Source: Pseudomonadota bacterium
Lineage (GTDB): Bacteria; Pseudomonadota; Gammaproteobacteria; Burkholderiales; Rhodocyclaceae
Assembly (NCBI GenBank): GCA_029776255.1
Contig: JAKOTN010000023.1
Span: 1-64,000 of the forward strand
Direction of reading: 5' to 3'
DNA: 64,000 nucleotides
Translations under genes and position numbers: made by a program
The notes under the pieces: model-generated
Told to the model about the DNA's origin: nothing
What the model saw: only the letters and a program-made list of their open reading frames with translations
The model's database searches: none
Shown: positions 12,056 to 23,387 of the stretch, piece by piece
Layout of the letters: each line of letters starts with the position of its first letter
Position numbering within the stretch: position 1 is the stretch's first letter

Positions 12056-12550
12056 ATGGACCGAACAAGAAGACACCGGAACATCCTGTCGGTGATCGCG
12101 AGTGGAGCATGTTGTCTGGCGGCAATTGGCGCCGCAGCGGTTTTCGCGGCGGAACCCGCGCCGGTGACAGGCAATGCCTGGGAAGCCCAGATCAAGGTTT
12201 CGCGCGGTGTGGTCAGCATCGATCGCGGTGGTCAGCAGTATCCTGGCGTCGTCGGCGCGCGTCTCAAGGAAAAGGATGTCATCCAGACCGGGGGCAACGG
12301 ATCGGTCGGTATCATGTTCAATGATAACTCGACGCTTTCGCTTGGGCCGGATGCCGAGGTCGTGCTGCAGCGCTACGCTTACGATTCGACGACCTACATG
12401 GGTGCTTTCGATGCGTATATCAAGCGAGGGACCGTTTCGGTACAAGCCGGCAACATCGCCAAGCAATCGCCGGGCGCGATGCGCATGATGACGCCAAAGG
12501 CCGAGCTCACCGGCACCGCCAAGAATTACGTTGTCAGCGTAGGGGAATGA
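12056..12550 (+). CDS. FecR-domain periplasmic protein
   Basis: A 164-residue exported protein. A signal peptide occupies roughly residues 1-32 (hydrophobic core, cleavage probably near FAA-EPAP). The rest is a compact FecR domain: VSRGVVSIDRGG, then GARLKEKDVIQTGGNGSVGIMFNDNSTLSLGPDAEVVL, a pattern known from FecR/LysM-type envelope proteins where it forms a small beta structure. It lacks the N-terminal anti-sigma part of true FecR, so it is not an iron-citrate regulator. First gene of a four-gene operon: only three bases separate its stop from the next start. Confidence 0.85.
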   Translation: MDRTRRHRNILSVIASGACCLAAIGAAAVFAAEPAPVTGNAWEAQIKVSRGVVSIDRGGQQYPGVVGARLKEKDVIQTGGNGSVGIMFNDNSTLSLGPDAEVVLQRYAYDSTTYMGAFDAYIKRGTVSVQAGNIAKQSPGAMRMMTPKAELTGTAKNYVVSVGE

Positions 12551-12553
12551 GTA

Positions 12554-13144
12554 ATGAATAGGGTATCGATCGCAATCGCACTGCTTCTGACGGCTTCGGC
12601 TTGCGCCAATCGCGACAATTACGTACTGCTGCCCGACCGGGGCGGTCAATCCGGAACACTCAGCGTCAAGGCCAAGGAAGGCGGTCATCAAATCAAACTC
12701 GAGCAACCGTATCAGACCGCGCGCTCGACTTCAGGTGGCTATGAACAGGGGAGCACCAACGCACAGGACGTACAGCGACGCTATGGTGCCGCTCTCGATG
12801 CGTCGCCACCGGAGCCATCGCGATTCGTATTGTATTTCCTTGAGGGGAGCGACGAATTAACACCGGCCTCCAAGCGGGATCTCGAGGCGATTCTGGCGGA
12901 AATCAAGGCGCGACCGGTACCCGATATCGTTGTTGTCGGTCACACCGACCGTGTCGGCAGTGTTGCCGATAACGACCGGCTCGCCTTGCGCCGCGCGGAG
13001 TCTTTCAGAAAGCGTTTGGTTCAGCAAGGCATCGCCGACGACACGATTCAGACGGCTGGCCGCGGCGAGCGCGAGCCGTTGGTTAACACCGCCGACGAGG
13101 TTGCCGAGCCACGTAACCGCAGGATCGAAATTCTCGTCCGTTAG
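12554..13144 (+). CDS. OmpA-domain lipoprotein (peptidoglycan-binding)
   Basis: A 196-residue protein with an apparent lipoprotein signal ending at Cys17 (LTASAC). A variable region of about 70 residues is followed by a C-terminal OmpA-like domain, with VGHTDRVGSVADND and RAESFRKRL, the peptidoglycan-binding signature seen in Pal and OmpA. It would sit at the envelope with the domain clasping the cell wall. The start has a strong AGGGG site eight bases upstream that lies within the end of the FecR gene. The next gene begins 26 bases after the stop. Confidence 0.88.
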   Translation: MNRVSIAIALLLTASACANRDNYVLLPDRGGQSGTLSVKAKEGGHQIKLEQPYQTARSTSGGYEQGSTNAQDVQRRYGAALDASPPEPSRFVLYFLEGSDELTPASKRDLEAILAEIKARPVPDIVVVGHTDRVGSVADNDRLALRRAESFRKRLVQQGIADDTIQTAGRGEREPLVNTADEVAEPRNRRIEILVR

Positions 13145-13170
13145 TGGGTTGTTGCCGGGGAGGGCGAAAC

Positions 13171-16170
13171 ATGGTCGGAAAATCGATCCGGGCGTTTTTG
13201 TTGTGCGCTTCGGCGCTCTGTCTCGGGTTGGCGGGAAAGGCTGGCGCCCAACTTCCCTCCGAGCCGACCCTGAAAATCGAGGCGGGCGCGCATCTGTCCC
13301 TGGTCACGCGTGTCAGCAGCGACGCACAAGGCCGCTGGATTCTGACCGCTTCGGAGGACAAGACCGCCCGCGTCTGGGAGGCGTCGACGGGCAAGCTGCT
13401 CTCGGTTTTACGACCGCCGATCGGCACCGAAAGCGTTGGGGCGCTGTATGCCGCCGCGCTGTCGCCTGACGGCAGGCAAGTCGCTCTCGGCGGCAACGCC
13501 GCTTTCGATGGTCGGACCCATTCGCTCTATCTTTTCGACCGTGCCAGTGGCCGTTTACCGCCGAAAAGCACGCTGTCGGGTTTGGAGGCGCCGTTGACGC
13601 AACTGGCCTGGTCGAAAGACAGCCAGCTTGTCGCTCTTGGTCTGCGTCAATCGGGCCTGCGTGTTTTTCAGCGAAACCTCGGCTTTGTCGGTAGCGATCC
13701 GGAGTATAACGAAGCCATTTACGGGGCGGATTTCGCTGCCGATGGACGCTTGGTCACGTGTAGTCTGGATGGCAGCGTCCGCCTTTATCGCGTCGACCGC
13801 AAGGGGTTGACCCGCACGGCGAGAAAGCAAATGGTGAGCGGCCGACCGTATTCGGTGGCTTTTTCACCGGATGGCATGTCGATCGCGGTCGGCTATCAAG
13901 ACGCCGGAACAGTGGATGTGCTGGATGCCGCGACGTTGGCGCTCCGCTACTCGACACCCTCGGTCAGTAAGGAAGGCAATCTCGGACGGGTGGCTTGGAG
14001 CAGCGACGGTCGCCAATTGTTCGCCGCCGGTACCGCCGTCAGCAACGGCCGTTTCCCGGTATTCGCCTTCGCCGACGCCGGTCGCGGTTCGGCGCGTGAA
14101 TTGAACAGTTTCGGGAATATCGTCACCGCTCTGGCGCCGTGGCGAGACGGGGTAGTGGCGGCCAGTGCCGAACCGTCGTGGGCGAGCTTTGACGGCGGGG
14201 GCAAACGGTATCTTTTCGCCCGTGCCACCACCGCCGATTTTCGCGATGCGGAGGAAAAATTCAGAGTCTCCGCCGACGCGATGCGGGTTTCCTTCCCACT
14301 CACCCGAGGTGGCGACGCGCTCGTTTTCGATTTGACCAAGGGCGATGTCCGACCCTACGCCTCCGACGCCAAGGTCGAGCCTCCTCGCCAGCCGGGTTGG
14401 AGCGGCGGTCCTAGCAACTGGAAAAACTCGGCCACACCCAAGGCGGGTTCGCGGCAACTTCAACTCCGTCCCGGAGAGATTTCGCGAAGCGTCGCCCTGT
14501 CTCCTGACAAGCAACGTTTTGTTCTGGGGACGGAGTGGTTCGTTCGGGCTTTCGACGCCGACGGCAATCCGCTTTGGGAACAGAGAACGCCGGCCGCCGC
14601 CTGGGCAATCAATATCTCCAGCGACGGCCGCTGGGCTCTGGCCGCGCTCGGCGATGGCACCGTGCGCTGGTATCGTATGCAGGATGGACGCGAGCAGTTA
14701 TCGCTGTTCGTCCATGCGGATGGCAAGCGCTGGATCATCTGGTCGCCTTCCGGCTATTACGATACTTCGCTGGACGGCGAGGATCTGGTTGGCTGGCATC
14801 TCAATCGCGGCATGAACCAGGCGTCGGATTTCTTTTCGGTTGGTCGTTTTCGTGATCGCTTTTATCGGCCGGAGATCATTCAGGGCATCGTGCGTACCGC
14901 CGATGAGGGAGCCGCTGTTCGACAGGTACAAGCGGCTGTTGCGGCGCTGGACGTGTCGGAGCCGACAGCCAAATCCGTGCCGGCCGTCGTTAAACAAGCC
15001 GGGCCGGCGCCGAAGGTGTCGATGACGTCTTCCGTCCTCACCGAAAAGCCGGCTGTCGCGACCGTTCTGCCGCCGGTGATTGAGTTGCTGTCCGACGGGC
15101 AGCTGGAGAGTTCGGCTAGCACGATTCCCGTGCGCTTCGCCTTGCGGAGCCCGGCTGACGCACCCGTTAGCGAAGTCAAGGTGCGTGTCAACGACAAGCT
15201 GGTTCGCTCCCTGGATACAAGAATCTTGCGCGGTACGCGAGGCGACGGCCATGAAGTTCAGGTTGCGGTGCCGCCGGTCGATAGTGAGATTCGCCTGTTC
15301 GCGGCAAACAAGAACGGCAAATCGGAGCCAGTAACGGTCAGCATTCGGCGAAATGCGGTTTCCGCCAAGCTTCCTGACACCCGTTTTGAGACTCTTTACC
15401 TGTTAATCATCGGTGTCAGCAAGTATCCTGAGGATTGGAAGCTTGAACTTGCCGAGAAAGATGCCCGCGATTTCAATTTTCACATGGTGAGGCAGGCGGG
15501 GAAACTTTACGGTACGGCTGTGCCGCGTTTACTGATCAACGAGCAGGCCAGCCGCGAAAAAGTTCTGGAAGGGTTGCGTTGGTTACGCGAAAGTGTTGGT
15601 GAGAAGGATGCGGGAGTGGTGTTCATCGCGGGTCATGGAGACCGGGTTGGAGCGGCGTACTATTTCATTCCAGGGGATGCTGAAGTTCTGCCCGCGCGTT
15701 CGGATTTCAAGAGCGCGAGCGAGTTCGATACATGGAAAATAAAGAATGCTCCCAAAAAATGGGTGCCTGGCGAGGAAATTTCGCGCACCTTGCTTGGCTT
15801 GAAAGGACGCTCGGCTTTCTTCATCGATACCTGCCACTCAGGAATCAACGCACGTCCGGGGCAATCGACCAATCCGGATTTGACCAAGGCGCTCAATGAA
15901 ATCAATGAGGAACGAGGTGTCATCGTTTTCGCGTCTTCCACAGGCAGGGAACTTTCACAGGAAGACCCCGCCTGGGGTAACGGTGCATTTACCAAGGCGA
16001 TTATCGAGGGTATTCGTGGTGGCGCCGACTTTAAAAAGGATGGCTTGATTCGTCCGTCCACCTTGCAGAGCTATGTCACCGACCGGGTCATGGAATTGAC
16101 CAAGAAAGAGCAGCGCCCCGTGATTTTCACCGTCGGGATTGATGACCCGATTGCCGTCAAAGGTCAATAG
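13171..16170 (+). CDS. Exported WD40-repeat protein with C-terminal caspase-fold (C14) peptidase domain
   Basis: A 999-residue protein. Residues 1-26 form a signal peptide ending AGA-Q. A beta-propeller of WD40-like repeats follows over about residues 30-530 (for example ILTASEDKTARVWEASTG and ALAALGDGTVRWY), ending in the SPSGYYDTSLDGEDLVGWHLNRG module that is common between propeller and caspase parts in bacterial proteins. An Ig-like segment lies near 640-720. The caspase fold starts near residue 745 (LLIIGVSKYP) and has both catalytic residues: His822 in AGHGD and Cys888 in DTCHSG. The ATG at 13171 is chosen for its GGGGAGGG site; a GTG at 13144 is an alternative. Bacterial relatives usually cleave after basic residues, but the substrate here is unknown. 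Confidence 0.9.
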   Translation: MVGKSIRAFLLCASALCLGLAGKAGAQLPSEPTLKIEAGAHLSLVTRVSSDAQGRWILTASEDKTARVWEASTGKLLSVLRPPIGTESVGALYAAALSPDGRQVALGGNAAFDGRTHSLYLFDRASGRLPPKSTLSGLEAPLTQLAWSKDSQLVALGLRQSGLRVFQRNLGFVGSDPEYNEAIYGADFAADGRLVTCSLDGSVRLYRVDRKGLTRTARKQMVSGRPYSVAFSPDGMSIAVGYQDAGTVDVLDAATLALRYSTPSVSKEGNLGRVAWSSDGRQLFAAGTAVSNGRFPVFAFADAGRGSARELNSFGNIVTALAPWRDGVVAASAEPSWASFDGGGKRYLFARATTADFRDAEEKFRVSADAMRVSFPLTRGGDALVFDLTKGDVRPYASDAKVEPPRQPGWSGGPSNWKNSATPKAGSRQLQLRPGEISRSVALSPDKQRFVLGTEWFVRAFDADGNPLWEQRTPAAAWAINISSDGRWALAALGDGTVRWYRMQDGREQLSLFVHADGKRWIIWSPSGYYDTSLDGEDLVGWHLNRGMNQASDFFSVGRFRDRFYRPEIIQGIVRTADEGAAVRQVQAAVAALDVSEPTAKSVPAVVKQAGPAPKVSMTSSVLTEKPAVATVLPPVIELLSDGQLESSASTIPVRFALRSPADAPVSEVKVRVNDKLVRSLDTRILRGTRGDGHEVQVAVPPVDSEIRLFAANKNGKSEPVTVSIRRNAVSAKLPDTRFETLYLLIIGVSKYPEDWKLELAEKDARDFNFHMVRQAGKLYGTAVPRLLINEQASREKVLEGLRWLRESVGEKDAGVVFIAGHGDRVGAAYYFIPGDAEVLPARSDFKSASEFDTWKIKNAPKKWVPGEEISRTLLGLKGRSAFFIDTCHSGINARPGQSTNPDLTKALNEINEERGVIVFASSTGRELSQEDPAWGNGAFTKAIIEGIRGGADFKKDGLIRPSTLQSYVTDRVMELTKKEQRPVIFTVGIDDPIAVKGQ

Positions 16171-16191
16171 TTTTTTTGGAAGGTTTTTGAG

Positions 16192-16869
16192 ATGACCGAA
16201 AACAATTTGAATCCGCGTTGGAGTGCCGTGGCGTTGTCCAGCATCATCTTGTTCAGCGCGTGCGCGACCAATCCGGATGGTTCGATCAAAATGGACAATC
16301 GCGCGACCGGTGCTTTAATAGGAGCCGGAGCGGGATGTGTGCTGGCAACCGCCGCGGGCAAGAATTGTCTGGCCGGCGCGGCGATAGGCGCGACCGTCGG
16401 TTTTCTGGTGGGATGGTACTTCGAATCGAAAAAAGTGGCTGACGCCAATCAGGTCAATGCCGAATACAAACGAAAAGGCCAGGTCATTCCCAAAACCGAA
16501 ATCAAGCCGGTAAAAGTCGATACCGTGATCAAGCCTGGCGTTCCGGAACGCGACGGGCAGCGTGAAGTGCAGGTGACCTCGAATACCGATTTGATCGGTT
16601 ATGGGGATAAAGCTCCGGAAATGAGCCAAAAATACGCGATATACGACGAAAACAACAAACTTGTCGACGAAAAGACCGAACGGATGGCGGCAGTAGACGG
16701 CGCGGGTCGTTACGAAAGCAATTCGAAATTCAAATTGCCGGCGTCGGCCAAGGGAAAAAAATACACCGTCAAAACGACGGTTCTGGCCGACAACAAGGCT
16801 TATAAGGAAAGCTCTTACAAAGTTTCGTTTACCGATCAGGGACCCTTCCTCGTGGCACTGGCGAATTGA
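16192..16869 (+). CDS. Glycine-zipper lipoprotein of unknown function
   Basis: A 225-residue protein. A lipoprotein-like signal ends FSAC (Cys24). Residues about 39-75 are a glycine-zipper hairpin (ALIGAGAGCVLATAAG, then AAIGATVGFLVGWYF), which can insert into or span a membrane. The remainder is hydrophilic and lysine-rich, with a probable beta domain near the C-terminus. Codon use is AT-richer than in neighbouring genes. It starts 21 bases after the caspase gene and is followed by a strong terminator, so it is the last gene of the operon. No function is known to me. Confidence 0.75.
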   Translation: MTENNLNPRWSAVALSSIILFSACATNPDGSIKMDNRATGALIGAGAGCVLATAAGKNCLAGAAIGATVGFLVGWYFESKKVADANQVNAEYKRKGQVIPKTEIKPVKVDTVIKPGVPERDGQREVQVTSNTDLIGYGDKAPEMSQKYAIYDENNKLVDEKTERMAAVDGAGRYESNSKFKLPASAKGKKYTVKTTVLADNKAYKESSYKVSFTDQGPFLVALAN

Positions 16870-16892
16870 TGCCGCCAAATGACGAAAAAGCT

Positions 16893-16925
16893 GGCCGGAC
16901 AAGATGGTCCGGCCATTTTCTTTCC
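16893..16925 (+). terminator. Rho-independent terminator of the FecR-OmpA-caspase operon
   Basis: A perfect 8-bp stem, GGCCGGAC (16893-16900) with GTCCGGCC (16907-16914), and a 6-base loop, followed by ATTTTCTTT. It lies 23 bases after the stop of the lipoprotein gene. Confidence 0.85.
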
Positions 16926-20376: not shown

Positions 20377-22101
20377 ATGACGCTTCTTGGACGCCTGGCG
20401 GTCGTCTTGCGTAGCCGCCAACGTTGGCTGCTGATTGCCATGCTGATGTTTTTGCATTTGGCGTTGTTGGCCGGTGCCGAAACCGCGATCAGCCTGTACT
20501 GCTGGCTGGTCAATCTCGGGTTGTTCATTCTTTGGCAGCCGTTCTATTACGCCGAGCGACGGGTCGATCTCGGTGGGCTGGTGGTGATCGCGCTGGTGCT
20601 TGGTGCCGGTATTGCTTTGTACGACTGGTGGCTGCTGATCCTTTGGGTGATCGTCCTGGCCGCACTGGTTGGCGGACGTGTGATGTTCATTGATCATTTG
20701 CCGACGCGAATCGTTTACTTAAATGCCTTTGCTTATCTTTTAACCGCCCTTCTTTTTCGGCTGGTACCCCAGGTGATGCCGGCGGCGACCCTGGGCGCGC
20801 CACTGCTGGATCGCGTATTCGCTTACGGCATGCCGGTTTTTTTCGTGGTGATGTGGCTGCTACCGACTTCGCCGGAAGATGACAAACCCGTTCGCACCGA
20901 AGGGGCGATGCTCGACTTGTTTTACAGCATTTTCATTTTTCTGCTGGTCGCCGTTCTTTTTCTCGGCAGTCTGGCTTTCATGCTGTTGCAACAGGCTGAT
21001 TATTTCGTGGCGGTTCTGAACACGTTGATCGCCGTGGCGGTGTCCCTGCTGTTGATCGGGTGGACCTGGAACACCCACCCTGGCTTCACCGGTATCGGAG
21101 TTTTCTTCTCGCGCTATCTGCTAACCATCGGTCTGCCCTTTGAAAAATGGCTGCACCGACTGACGGCGATGGCCGCTAGGGAAAGCGACCCCGAAGTGTT
21201 TCTCTCGCACGCACTTCACGATTTGCTCAATCTGCCGTGGATCGAAGGAGGGACTTGGCGAGCCGGTGTGCTTCGAGGCTCTTTTGGCCGAGCATCGAAA
21301 TTTCGCCAGGATTTTCCCGGCCAGCCGTTGATTCTCAGTCTGCACACGCAACATAAGCTTAGCCCGGCTCTGGTTTGGCATTTCCACCTGCTGGCGCAGT
21401 TGGCCAATGAACACTACGTTGCCAAATTGCGGGCGCGCGAGTTGCAACAAGTCAGCTATTTGCGCGCGGTTCACGAAACCGGCGCTCGTTTGACGCATGA
21501 TGTGAAAAACCTCTTGCAGTCCTTGAACAATCTTTGTTATCTCGCACAAACCATCAGCAGCCATGACAGCGAACGCGTTGAAGCTCTCCTGCAACGGCAA
21601 TTGCCCCAAATCACCTTGCGGTTGCAGCAAACCCTCGCGAAACTGCAAAAACCGGAAGTCGAAAAGGGCGGTTTTTCGCCGGCGGCGCTTTGGTGGACAA
21701 CTTTGCGGCAGCGCTACATCGACACGCCGATTGATTTCGCCGCCGTGGAAATCGACGCCAACGTGTCGCTACCGACAGTGTTGTTCGATAGCGTTGCCGA
21801 TAACCTCCTGCATAACGCCCTACTAAAAAAACAAACGGAAAACCACCTGCGGATCGCGATCCGCATCGCGGCGGACGCCTCCATATTAAGCGTCAGCGAT
21901 ACCGGTAGTCCGCTGGGAGACACGTTGGCGCACGCGTTATTTCACGGACCCGTGTCGTCCGAAAATGGATTGGGAATCGGCCTTTATCACGCCTATCAAC
22001 AGGCCGAACGTCATGGCTACGCATTGCGTTTGGCTGCCAACAACCCCGGTCAGGTGTGTTTCGAGTTGCGCCGGCGCGAAAAAGTCGTCGCCTCCAGCTA
22101 G
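20377..22101 (+). CDS. Membrane sensor histidine kinase
   Basis: A 574-residue protein. About the first 240 residues hold a run of membrane helices (probably seven or eight) with no recognised sensor domain. A cytoplasmic linker follows. The phospho-acceptor His374 is in LTHDVKNLLQSLNNL, an H-box of the HDxKN type. The ATPase part has a weak N box (NLLHNALLKK), G1 (SDTGSPLG) and G2 (ENGLGIGLYHA). No response regulator is adjacent. The stop overlaps the stop of the adenylate cyclase on the other strand by four bases. The start at 20377 is preferred to an in-frame GTG at 20356. Confidence 0.85.
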   Translation: MTLLGRLAVVLRSRQRWLLIAMLMFLHLALLAGAETAISLYCWLVNLGLFILWQPFYYAERRVDLGGLVVIALVLGAGIALYDWWLLILWVIVLAALVGGRVMFIDHLPTRIVYLNAFAYLLTALLFRLVPQVMPAATLGAPLLDRVFAYGMPVFFVVMWLLPTSPEDDKPVRTEGAMLDLFYSIFIFLLVAVLFLGSLAFMLLQQADYFVAVLNTLIAVAVSLLLIGWTWNTHPGFTGIGVFFSRYLLTIGLPFEKWLHRLTAMAARESDPEVFLSHALHDLLNLPWIEGGTWRAGVLRGSFGRASKFRQDFPGQPLILSLHTQHKLSPALVWHFHLLAQLANEHYVAKLRARELQQVSYLRAVHETGARLTHDVKNLLQSLNNLCYLAQTISSHDSERVEALLQRQLPQITLRLQQTLAKLQKPEVEKGGFSPAALWWTTLRQRYIDTPIDFAAVEIDANVSLPTVLFDSVADNLLHNALLKKQTENHLRIAIRIAADASILSVSDTGSPLGDTLAHALFHGPVSSENGLGIGLYHAYQQAERHGYALRLAANNPGQVCFELRRREKVVASS

Positions 22102-23387
22102 ATCGGAGTGGAGTGGCCGTCACGCCGGCCGACCAAGCGGTGAACGACCATATTTCCCTTGCCTTTGAGGTGAATGGTCTGTGGTGCCTGGAACTCAAAT
22201 CGGGAGCACAGACGCCGGTAACTCCGCTCGTCGACCTGAACCATGCCCGGAACGCCTTCCGTGGTAATCCGGCTGGCGATATTGACGGTGTCGCCCCAGA
22301 GGTCGTAGATGAATTTCTTCGTGCCAACCACGCCCGCGACCACCGGCCCGGTTCCGATACCGATGCGGACATCGAGGTGCATCTCGTTGATATTGAAATC
22401 GTGGTGCAGCAAGCTGCACATTTCCAACGCCATCTCGGCCAACGATTCGGTATAGTCGCCTTCGGTGTCGTTCAAGCCACCCGCGACCATGTAGGCATCG
22501 CCGATGGTTTTTATTTTTTCCAGGCCATATTTTCCGGCAAGCTCGTCGAAGCAGGAGAATATCTTGTTCAGCATGGCAAAAACCTGTTTTGGAGAAAGAC
22601 CCTCTGCGACTCTGGTGAAATTCACGATGTCGGCAAACATCACGGAAACCTCGGCAAAACCGTCGACGATGGGCTGATTGCTGTTTTTCAAGCGTTCGGC
22701 GATTGGCGCGGGGAGAATATTCAGCAACAGTCTTTCCGAACGGCCCTGTTCGATTTGCAACAGGCGGTGCGCATCCTGCAATCGCTCCTGGGCTTTATGT
22801 TTCTCATTATCGGAATAGCGCAAAAGCAAGTAGACGATGGTCGAAACAGCGATGAAGTTGAGAGCGAAAAAAAATGCCGAGGTTTGCGGTGACACCTTTT
22901 GCGGCTGAACGACGATGGTGTCGGCCAGGTAATAATCGAAGGCGCCGGAAACCGTGGTGAGAAAAACGTAAGCAAAAAACCAAGCTCCCGATTCTCGCGG
23001 GCCGATAAATAAAACCGCGCCGATTGGCGCCAGGAGTGCCCAGAGGCTGATGCCGCTGGATGTGATGAAACTGCCGATACTCCATTGCGCCACGAAAGGC
23101 GTAAACAAAAACAACGACAACTGCAAAACCCTAAACACATTAAAATCAAGGGTTTTAAGGTAAATTAGTAAGTTGCCAACAAGTAGGAGCTGCAACAGAA
23201 ATGGTAGATTCGACGAGAATCGTGGGCCGAGTTGCCAATAAATCAGCAACCAGACCATTGACGCCAGGCAAATCAGGCCGGTGGCGAAAACAAGTAGCGA
23301 CTTTTGCAGGCGCAACTCTTCGGAATCCGACGGCGATATCCCGGCATTGCGTAGCCGATCGACAAAGGTCGGCGTGACGACAGTCAT
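22098..23387 (-). CDS. Membrane class III adenylate cyclase
   Basis: A 429-residue protein. The N-terminal 200 residues contain about six membrane helices, followed by a short coiled linker (ERLQDAHRLLQIEQGRSERLLLNILP) and a class III cyclase domain at about 240-415. Metal-binding aspartates are in MFADIVNFT and in GDAYMVAGG. The base-selecting pair is Lys (EKIKTIGDAY) and Asp (YDLWGDTVNIASR), as in ATP-specific enzymes, so the product should be cAMP. The fold around residues 20-200 is not a HAMP or CHASE domain I can name. Convergent with the histidine kinase gene. Confidence 0.9.
   Translation of the reverse strand: MTVVTPTFVDRLRNAGISPSDSEELRLQKSLLVFATGLICLASMVWLLIYWQLGPRFSSNLPFLLQLLLVGNLLIYLKTLDFNVFRVLQLSLFLFTPFVAQWSIGSFITSSGISLWALLAPIGAVLFIGPRESGAWFFAYVFLTTVSGAFDYYLADTIVVQPQKVSPQTSAFFFALNFIAVSTIVYLLLRYSDNEKHKAQERLQDAHRLLQIEQGRSERLLLNILPAPIAERLKNSNQPIVDGFAEVSVMFADIVNFTRVAEGLSPKQVFAMLNKIFSCFDELAGKYGLEKIKTIGDAYMVAGGLNDTEGDYTESLAEMALEMCSLLHHDFNINEMHLDVRIGIGTGPVVAGVVGTKKFIYDLWGDTVNIASRITTEGVPGMVQVDERSYRRLCSRFEFQAPQTIHLKGKGNMVVHRLVGRRDGHSTPI

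Follow-up and report, generated by a model that had tools for sequence, protein, structure and literature searches.

A conserved four-gene operon encoding an exported WD40-caspase relative in Rhodocyclaceae, and its co-occurrence with a second cluster of exported proteins

Results

The window analysed here is a stretch of 64,000 nucleotides from a wastewater member of the Rhodocyclaceae (assembly GCA_029776255.1, contig JAKOTN010000023.1, positions 1 to 64,000). Four consecutive genes on its forward strand encode a FecR-domain protein of 164 amino acids with a signal-like N-terminus (12056..12550), an OmpA-domain lipoprotein of 196 amino acids with a lipobox judged by eye (12554..13144), an exported WD40-caspase of 999 amino acids (13171..16170) and a glycine-zipper lipoprotein of 225 amino acids with a conserved C-terminal domain (16192..16869). 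The gaps between them are 3, 26 and 21 bases if the caspase is taken to start at the ATG at 13171; an alternative GTG start, 27 bases 5' of the ATG, would give a protein of 1008 amino acids and a one-base overlap with the OmpA stop codon. A single strong terminator-like hairpin serves the operon, with a 9-pair stem followed by a run of T's (16892..16915, forward strand, listed on the reverse strand as well). The open reading frames and the hairpin scan thus agree with the layout of four genes and one terminator given by an earlier, sequence-only reading of this DNA, although the terminator scan is weak by itself because it returned 20 such sites in 9 kb against 11.5 in shuffled sequences. The promoter scan of the same 9 kb gave a single promoter-like site, a count below that of shuffled sequences, and no site ahead of the FecR gene. 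A shared promoter motif at that position was considered and dropped, the alignment of five sequences containing no convincing block. Elsewhere in the window, positions 22101-23387 of the reverse strand encode a protein with an adenylate/guanylate cyclase catalytic domain.

Each partner of the caspase clears its Pfam threshold. The FecR-domain protein matches Pfam FecR at 7.9e-06 (26.7 bits against a cut-off of 24) and is 52-78% identical across 10 aligned operons. The OmpA lipoprotein matches Pfam OmpA at 6.3e-20, with 48-76% identity in 10 rows, and Asp132 and Arg147 of its OmpA domain, which we take to be the peptidoglycan-binding positions, are invariant in all 10. Judged from these residues it is a plausible wall anchor, and in this respect the wall-anchored proteolysis put forward by the sequence-only reading keeps its anchor, while the proteolysis itself is a prediction. 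The zipper protein matches Gly-zipper_Omp just above threshold (1.3e-05, 25.4 bits against 25), its lipobox Cys24 is invariant in 17/17 rows, and a profile search of the PDB returned one OmpA-family chain (0.005).

As had been claimed, all four products are predicted to leave the cytoplasm: export signals judged by eye are present on each, with lipoboxes on the OmpA and zipper proteins and an A-x-A site ahead of the WD40 region of the caspase. A crude scan gave a hydrophobic stretch of 11 residues near the N-terminus, with a mean Kyte-Doolittle value of at least 1.7, for 50 of 52 WD40-caspase rows; the other two, L076 and L094, were lower. The accompanying statement that known metacaspases are mostly cytoplasmic was too strong, as the accessible text of a 2012 survey lists 46 metacaspases with an N-terminal helix that is possibly a signal peptide, and its section 13 counts OmpA genes in 14 of the 217 operons with a metacaspase (PMC3501461).

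The caspase gene encodes three regions, all on the forward strand. A WD40 beta-propeller with a short helical tail (approximately residues 33-595, 13267..14955) is defined by the strands of a predicted structure and by a Pfam WD40 match above cut-off (2.1e-20); a beta-rich domain, seen as strands in the model, links the propeller to the caspase (approximately residues 634-728, 15070..15354); and a caspase-type domain follows (approximately residues 739-987, 15385..16131). The model has a mean pLDDT of 84.5 and a pTM of 0.72, and in it His822 (15634..15636, in FIAGHGDR) comes after the strand 814-820 and Cys888 (15832..15834, in FIDTCHSG) after the strand 880-886. The positions given for this dyad by the sequence-only reading were correct. 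Both residues are invariant in 58/58 aligned relatives, as are Asp764 (15460..15462) and Asp886 (15826..15828), two acids that we propose line the S1 pocket. Some caspases had appeared to be without the His or Cys motif, a result discarded when the regular expression proved too strict and the alignment placed both residues in all 58.

The caspase-type assignment rests on a profile-profile link together with the dyad, and not on Pfam. Peptidase_C14 is absent among the matches listed for the full-length protein (25 of 26 Pfam families), and when the last 429 residues were searched separately it was again absent, the sole match up to an E-value of 1 being CHAT (0.16). The NCBIfam caspase model matches the window protein at 4.7e-10 with 39 bits, well under its cut-off of 140 bits. 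By hhalign, the window caspase domain aligns with a small caspase of locus L080 at 98.6%, His and Cys included, and the topology of the model agrees; this small caspase also lies in locus L144, from the genome of L080, where it matches Peptidase_C14 at 1.8e-28. As regards membership of C14, therefore, the His-Cys dyad sits in a p20-like fold and the score stays below the Pfam Peptidase_C14 cut-off.

In a trypanosome metacaspase, D95 and D211 bind basic substrates, according to the available text of PMC8283722. We infer from the motifs that Asp764 and Asp886 correspond to these two residues. As they are invariant and acids are expected in a pocket for a basic P1 residue, the enzyme is predicted to cleave after Arg or Lys, and we consider it probable both that it has this specificity and that this exported caspase relative is active. 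A decayed-looking paralogue is present in the window genome (L034:4877-6610, G000:C83), where a frame of 577 residues joins pieces resembling the OmpA lipoprotein and the caspase linker but lacks the segment bearing His and Cys.

The sequence-only reading had staked its case on the four genes recurring together in other genomes, and they do. In a tree of 58 WD40-caspases, built by a quick method, the window protein falls within a clade of 25 (SH-aLRT support 100). The glycine-zipper gene lies directly downstream of the caspase in 24 of these 25, the exception being L057 (Rhodocyclus purpureus), where the contig ends about 400 bases past the caspase. All four genes are found in 13/25 (the window, L055, L056, L059, L063, L066, L068, L080, L098, L138, L139, L141 and L142), and a fragment of the OmpA gene remains at L067. 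Since the identical order recurs in several genera, it is conserved beyond chance. Overlaps of 4 bases join FecR to OmpA in five of the seven operons measured and OmpA to the caspase in three of six scored, the frame starts having been set mechanically in both counts. In 11 further rows of the tree (groups of 9 and 2) a different OmpA-domain lipoprotein is encoded directly upstream of the caspase, so exported WD40-caspases are recurrently paired with anchors of the OmpA type. The zipper gene is rare across the whole order: at 1e-10 it was found in 3/250 genomes, and two of these matches are weak. Two variant loci were noted. At L039 (G007:C59), a contig of 4 kb bears a further FecR-OmpA-caspase copy that is truncated, a duplicate or an assembly mixture, in a genome whose intact copy lies elsewhere. 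In a Dechloromonas MAG (L098:3587-5627), the four-gene operon is immediately preceded by two additional genes, one FecR-like by eye and one for a glycine-zipper protein.

In three genomes of the same genus as the window, a second cluster sits upstream of the operon. It is a run of exported genes encoding a peptidoglycan-binding/DUF4384 protein, a protein with an HExxH motif, a second OmpA protein, small repeat proteins and small proteins without known domains. The HExxH protein has about 300 residues, and its motif and a downstream Glu are invariant in 9/9 rows, by which it is a predicted zinc peptidase. It has no meaningful match in Pfam, the PDB or NCBIfam, the best (0.0016) of four matches in the PDB profile search being an implausible recombinase. 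The HExxH genes of three genomes had been taken for pseudogenes with internal stops, a view that was rejected because complete frames of 296 amino acids are present. DUF4384 is fused to caspases in cyanobacteria, according to the accessible part of PMC7475262, and 7 of 20 further HExxH loci hold another caspase-domain gene. The motif RxRAxxxR occurs 18 times in 28 copies of the second protein of the cluster (shuffled mean 0.5, highest 3); it was set aside as substrate evidence, a stricter form being missing from 17 of 26 distinct proteins.

The small repeat proteins carry the pattern A-x-G-x-x-N-x-A-x-N. Its core, GxxNxA, was counted 112 times in 76 such proteins, against a mean of 14 and a highest count of 26 in shuffled sequences, and 11 of 64 distinct proteins are without it. 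Membership of the curli family was considered and rejected: no genome of 199 had a Curlin_rpt match at an E-value of 0.01, the E. coli control being positive, and CsgG scores for the DUF4384 protein fell under cut-off. These were E-values of 0.098 and 0.2 against Pfam CsgG; the HfaB comparison (0.0086) was likewise under cut-off, hhalign against CsgG gave 4.6% and 0.1%, and a PDB profile search for this protein gave no matches. The weak alignment spans the CsgG domain, always under cut-off, and the DUF4384 protein may be CsgG-like. By analogy, the second cluster may work like a curli or HfaB system, without being filed as a member. A separate gene of the CsgG family, above the Pfam cut-off, is present in the window genome (L154, G000:C22:17948-18481) on a contig other than that of the second cluster.

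Co-occurrence of the two sets was assessed in 395 genomes of the family, with the zipper gene standing for the operon and the HExxH gene for the second cluster. The zipper gene was found in 18 genomes, the HExxH gene in 31 and both in 13. Thus the HExxH gene is present in 13/18 genomes with the zipper gene and in 18/377 without it (Fisher 1.9e-12), and counted by genus in 7/9 against 7/59 (p 1e-4); as related genomes are not independent and kinship was handled to the genus level, these p values serve as guides. Among the genomes that gave no match, some are incomplete (G423, G478 and G602, for instance, at 80-86%). The second cluster can be inherited independently of the operon, 18 of the 31 HExxH genomes having no zipper gene. 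Within the carriers, the HExxH gene accompanied the full operon in 11/11 genomes and the caspase-zipper pair by itself in 1/5 (p 0.0027), a comparison that leaves out G396 (a zipper-like gene with no adjoining caspase) and G410 (a contig end) and in which several of the five caspase-zipper genomes are incomplete.

Physical linkage was also recurrent. Of the 13 genomes with both halves, 7 have them within 15 kb of each other, for which the chance under random placement in 4 Mb is below 1% each. They are co-linear in G007, G020, G351 and G395, forming in G351 a single run of 13 genes whose order is the same in G395, and convergent in G339, G573 and G593. The three convergent genomes have an extra caspase gene upstream of FecR, preceded in G573 and G339 by genes for a hydrolase-like lipoprotein and a barrel protein; Pfam was the basis for these at L144 only (Autotransporter 2.6e-09, the hydrolase under cut-off), and L141 was judged by eye. 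At L144:1219-4984 and L141:10741-13864, a small Peptidase_C14 caspase, the hydrolase-like lipoprotein and the barrel protein stand beside the second cluster. In the window genome the second cluster has intact frames and lies on a different contig (C57).

One explanation for these data is that both halves are inherited together as lifestyle genes of Rhodocyclaceae that form biofilms or granules, with no direct functional link. The halves are apart in the window genome and in five more of the 13, and the genomes are related, as this explanation would have it. Against it, seven of the 13 are physically linked in two orientations, and FecR-OmpA bridges both sets, since it comes after the second cluster in G004, where the 15 kb examined contain no caspase-zipper pair. 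We regard a purely lifestyle-based association as unlikely.

Discussion

Roles of bacterial caspase relatives are usually framed around stress and cell death. In related bacteria the operon described here tends to be found together with a second exported set, and in many cases the two are joined, which points to proteolysis at the cell envelope rather than to cell death. This linked cluster was not visible to the earlier reader, and it changes the likely function of the operon. Starting from the export signals, the intact dyad, the conserved operon, its co-occurrence and the repeated physical linkage, all of them read from sequence, we tentatively favour envelope proteolysis in the service of the second cluster, whose exported proteins would be assembled, matured or checked for quality with its help, as a reading with a real, if less than even, chance of being right. 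A WD40-propeller caspase-type protease would be exported to the periplasm, where its neighbours would be the FecR-domain protein and two lipoproteins, one of the OmpA type and bound to peptidoglycan, the other with a glycine zipper. It would cut, probably after Arg or Lys, and would serve the exported proteins of the co-inherited cluster, which comprises the small secreted repeat proteins, a peptidoglycan-binding/DUF4384 protein that is maybe CsgG-like, the HExxH protein as a predicted zinc peptidase, and another OmpA protein. In this scheme we infer protease activity, basic-P1 specificity, a physical complex, the substrates and the role in surface assembly.

The sequence-only reading had proposed a different function, in envelope damage, defence or a contact-dependent system; its operon, export signals, dyad and gene order have held, and this function has found no clear backing. 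In such a defence or self-killing scheme a triggered caspase would damage the envelope, with the zipper lipoprotein as a pore. Some bacterial caspases do act in stress or death, as stated in the accessible text of PMC3501461, and the small caspase of L144, a neighbour of the operon there, matches a PADLOC caspase model at 4.7e-12. The window proteins, however, have weak or generic matches in PADLOC (OmpA to ZorB at 1.3e-08, the caspase at 0.0021), and no toxin- or immunity-like gene was recognised adjoining the operon in the gene maps. The zipper gene is tied to the caspase in 24/25, yet the pore role is drawn from the glycine zipper by itself. We consider this scheme improbable.

Another possibility is an envelope stress or damage sensor, in which FecR, OmpA or the zipper protein senses strain on the wall or membrane and switches on the caspase, which then cuts an envelope regulator. 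FecR-domain proteins are often parts of signalling, and the operon does bring wall- or membrane-anchored partners together with a protease and a WD40 scaffold. Against this, the gene maps contain no recurring sigma or anti-sigma factor, sensor kinase or regulator as a neighbour, and the neighbours that do recur are structural-looking exported proteins; the sensor is thus given a low probability. General degradation of periplasmic or extracellular protein for nutrition would also employ an exported protease, and extracellular degradation of protein by Betaproteobacteria, through their metacaspases, is speculated on in passing in the available text of PMC4933709. The fixed operon with its lipoprotein partners and the co-inherited cluster suggest dedicated substrates instead, and nutrition is very doubtful as an explanation.

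Returning to envelope proteolysis in the service of the second cluster, a more specific version of it is that a CsgG/HfaB-like, wall-binding outer-membrane channel secretes the GxxNxA repeat proteins, that the orthocaspase and the zincin mature or police them, and that the OmpA and FecR proteins tie the apparatus to peptidoglycan. We hold this version to be somewhat unlikely. If true, it would constitute a system of envelope export and assembly, so far undescribed, in Rhodocyclaceae and their relatives, and a bacterial caspase with surface assembly, not death, as its job. A conserved operon, an exported protease, defined partners and candidate co-inherited substrates together make one bacterial caspase relative testable, both in relatives that are in culture and for Accumulibacter.

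Accumulibacter is a granule-forming genus of phosphorus-removing sludge. The accessible part of PMC4933709 names it as one of the ten genera with the most metacaspase genes, and the word caspase is absent from the main text of two papers on the secretome and matrix of Accumulibacter (PMC12019908, PMC12016536). The gene set was not described among the matches listed by a literature search that covered few subscription papers.

Among known systems, the closest to the window protein are the bacterial orthocaspases and metacaspases, which share the caspase-type domain and the His-Cys dyad and include forms containing WD40; in the survey text available, WD40 is the Pfam domain most often found beside the caspase domain, in 10.9% of sequences (PMC3501461). 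The present protein differs from known orthocaspases in its signal peptide, its two lipoprotein partners and its fixed four-gene operon, and its caspase domain is missed by the Pfam C14 model. It resembles the metacaspase operons with OmpA of the same survey in having an OmpA-domain gene inside the caspase operon, and section 13 of that survey names neither the FecR-OmpA-caspase-zipper order nor a second cluster. Lipoproteins of the YiaD type are a further point of likeness, as the YiaD model matches the OmpA and zipper proteins alike, under its cut-off; here the glycine zipper and the OmpA domain are on separate proteins encoded on either side of the caspase gene. Finally, like curli (type VIII) secretion and HfaB, the second cluster encodes a weakly CsgG/HfaB-like protein beside small secreted repeat proteins, and the GxxN spacing of these resembles the curlin repeat, given in the available text of PMC3521004 as X6QXGX2NX10. 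In contrast to curli, Ala usually takes the place of Gln in the repeat (85 of 90 motifs), and proteases have been added to the set.
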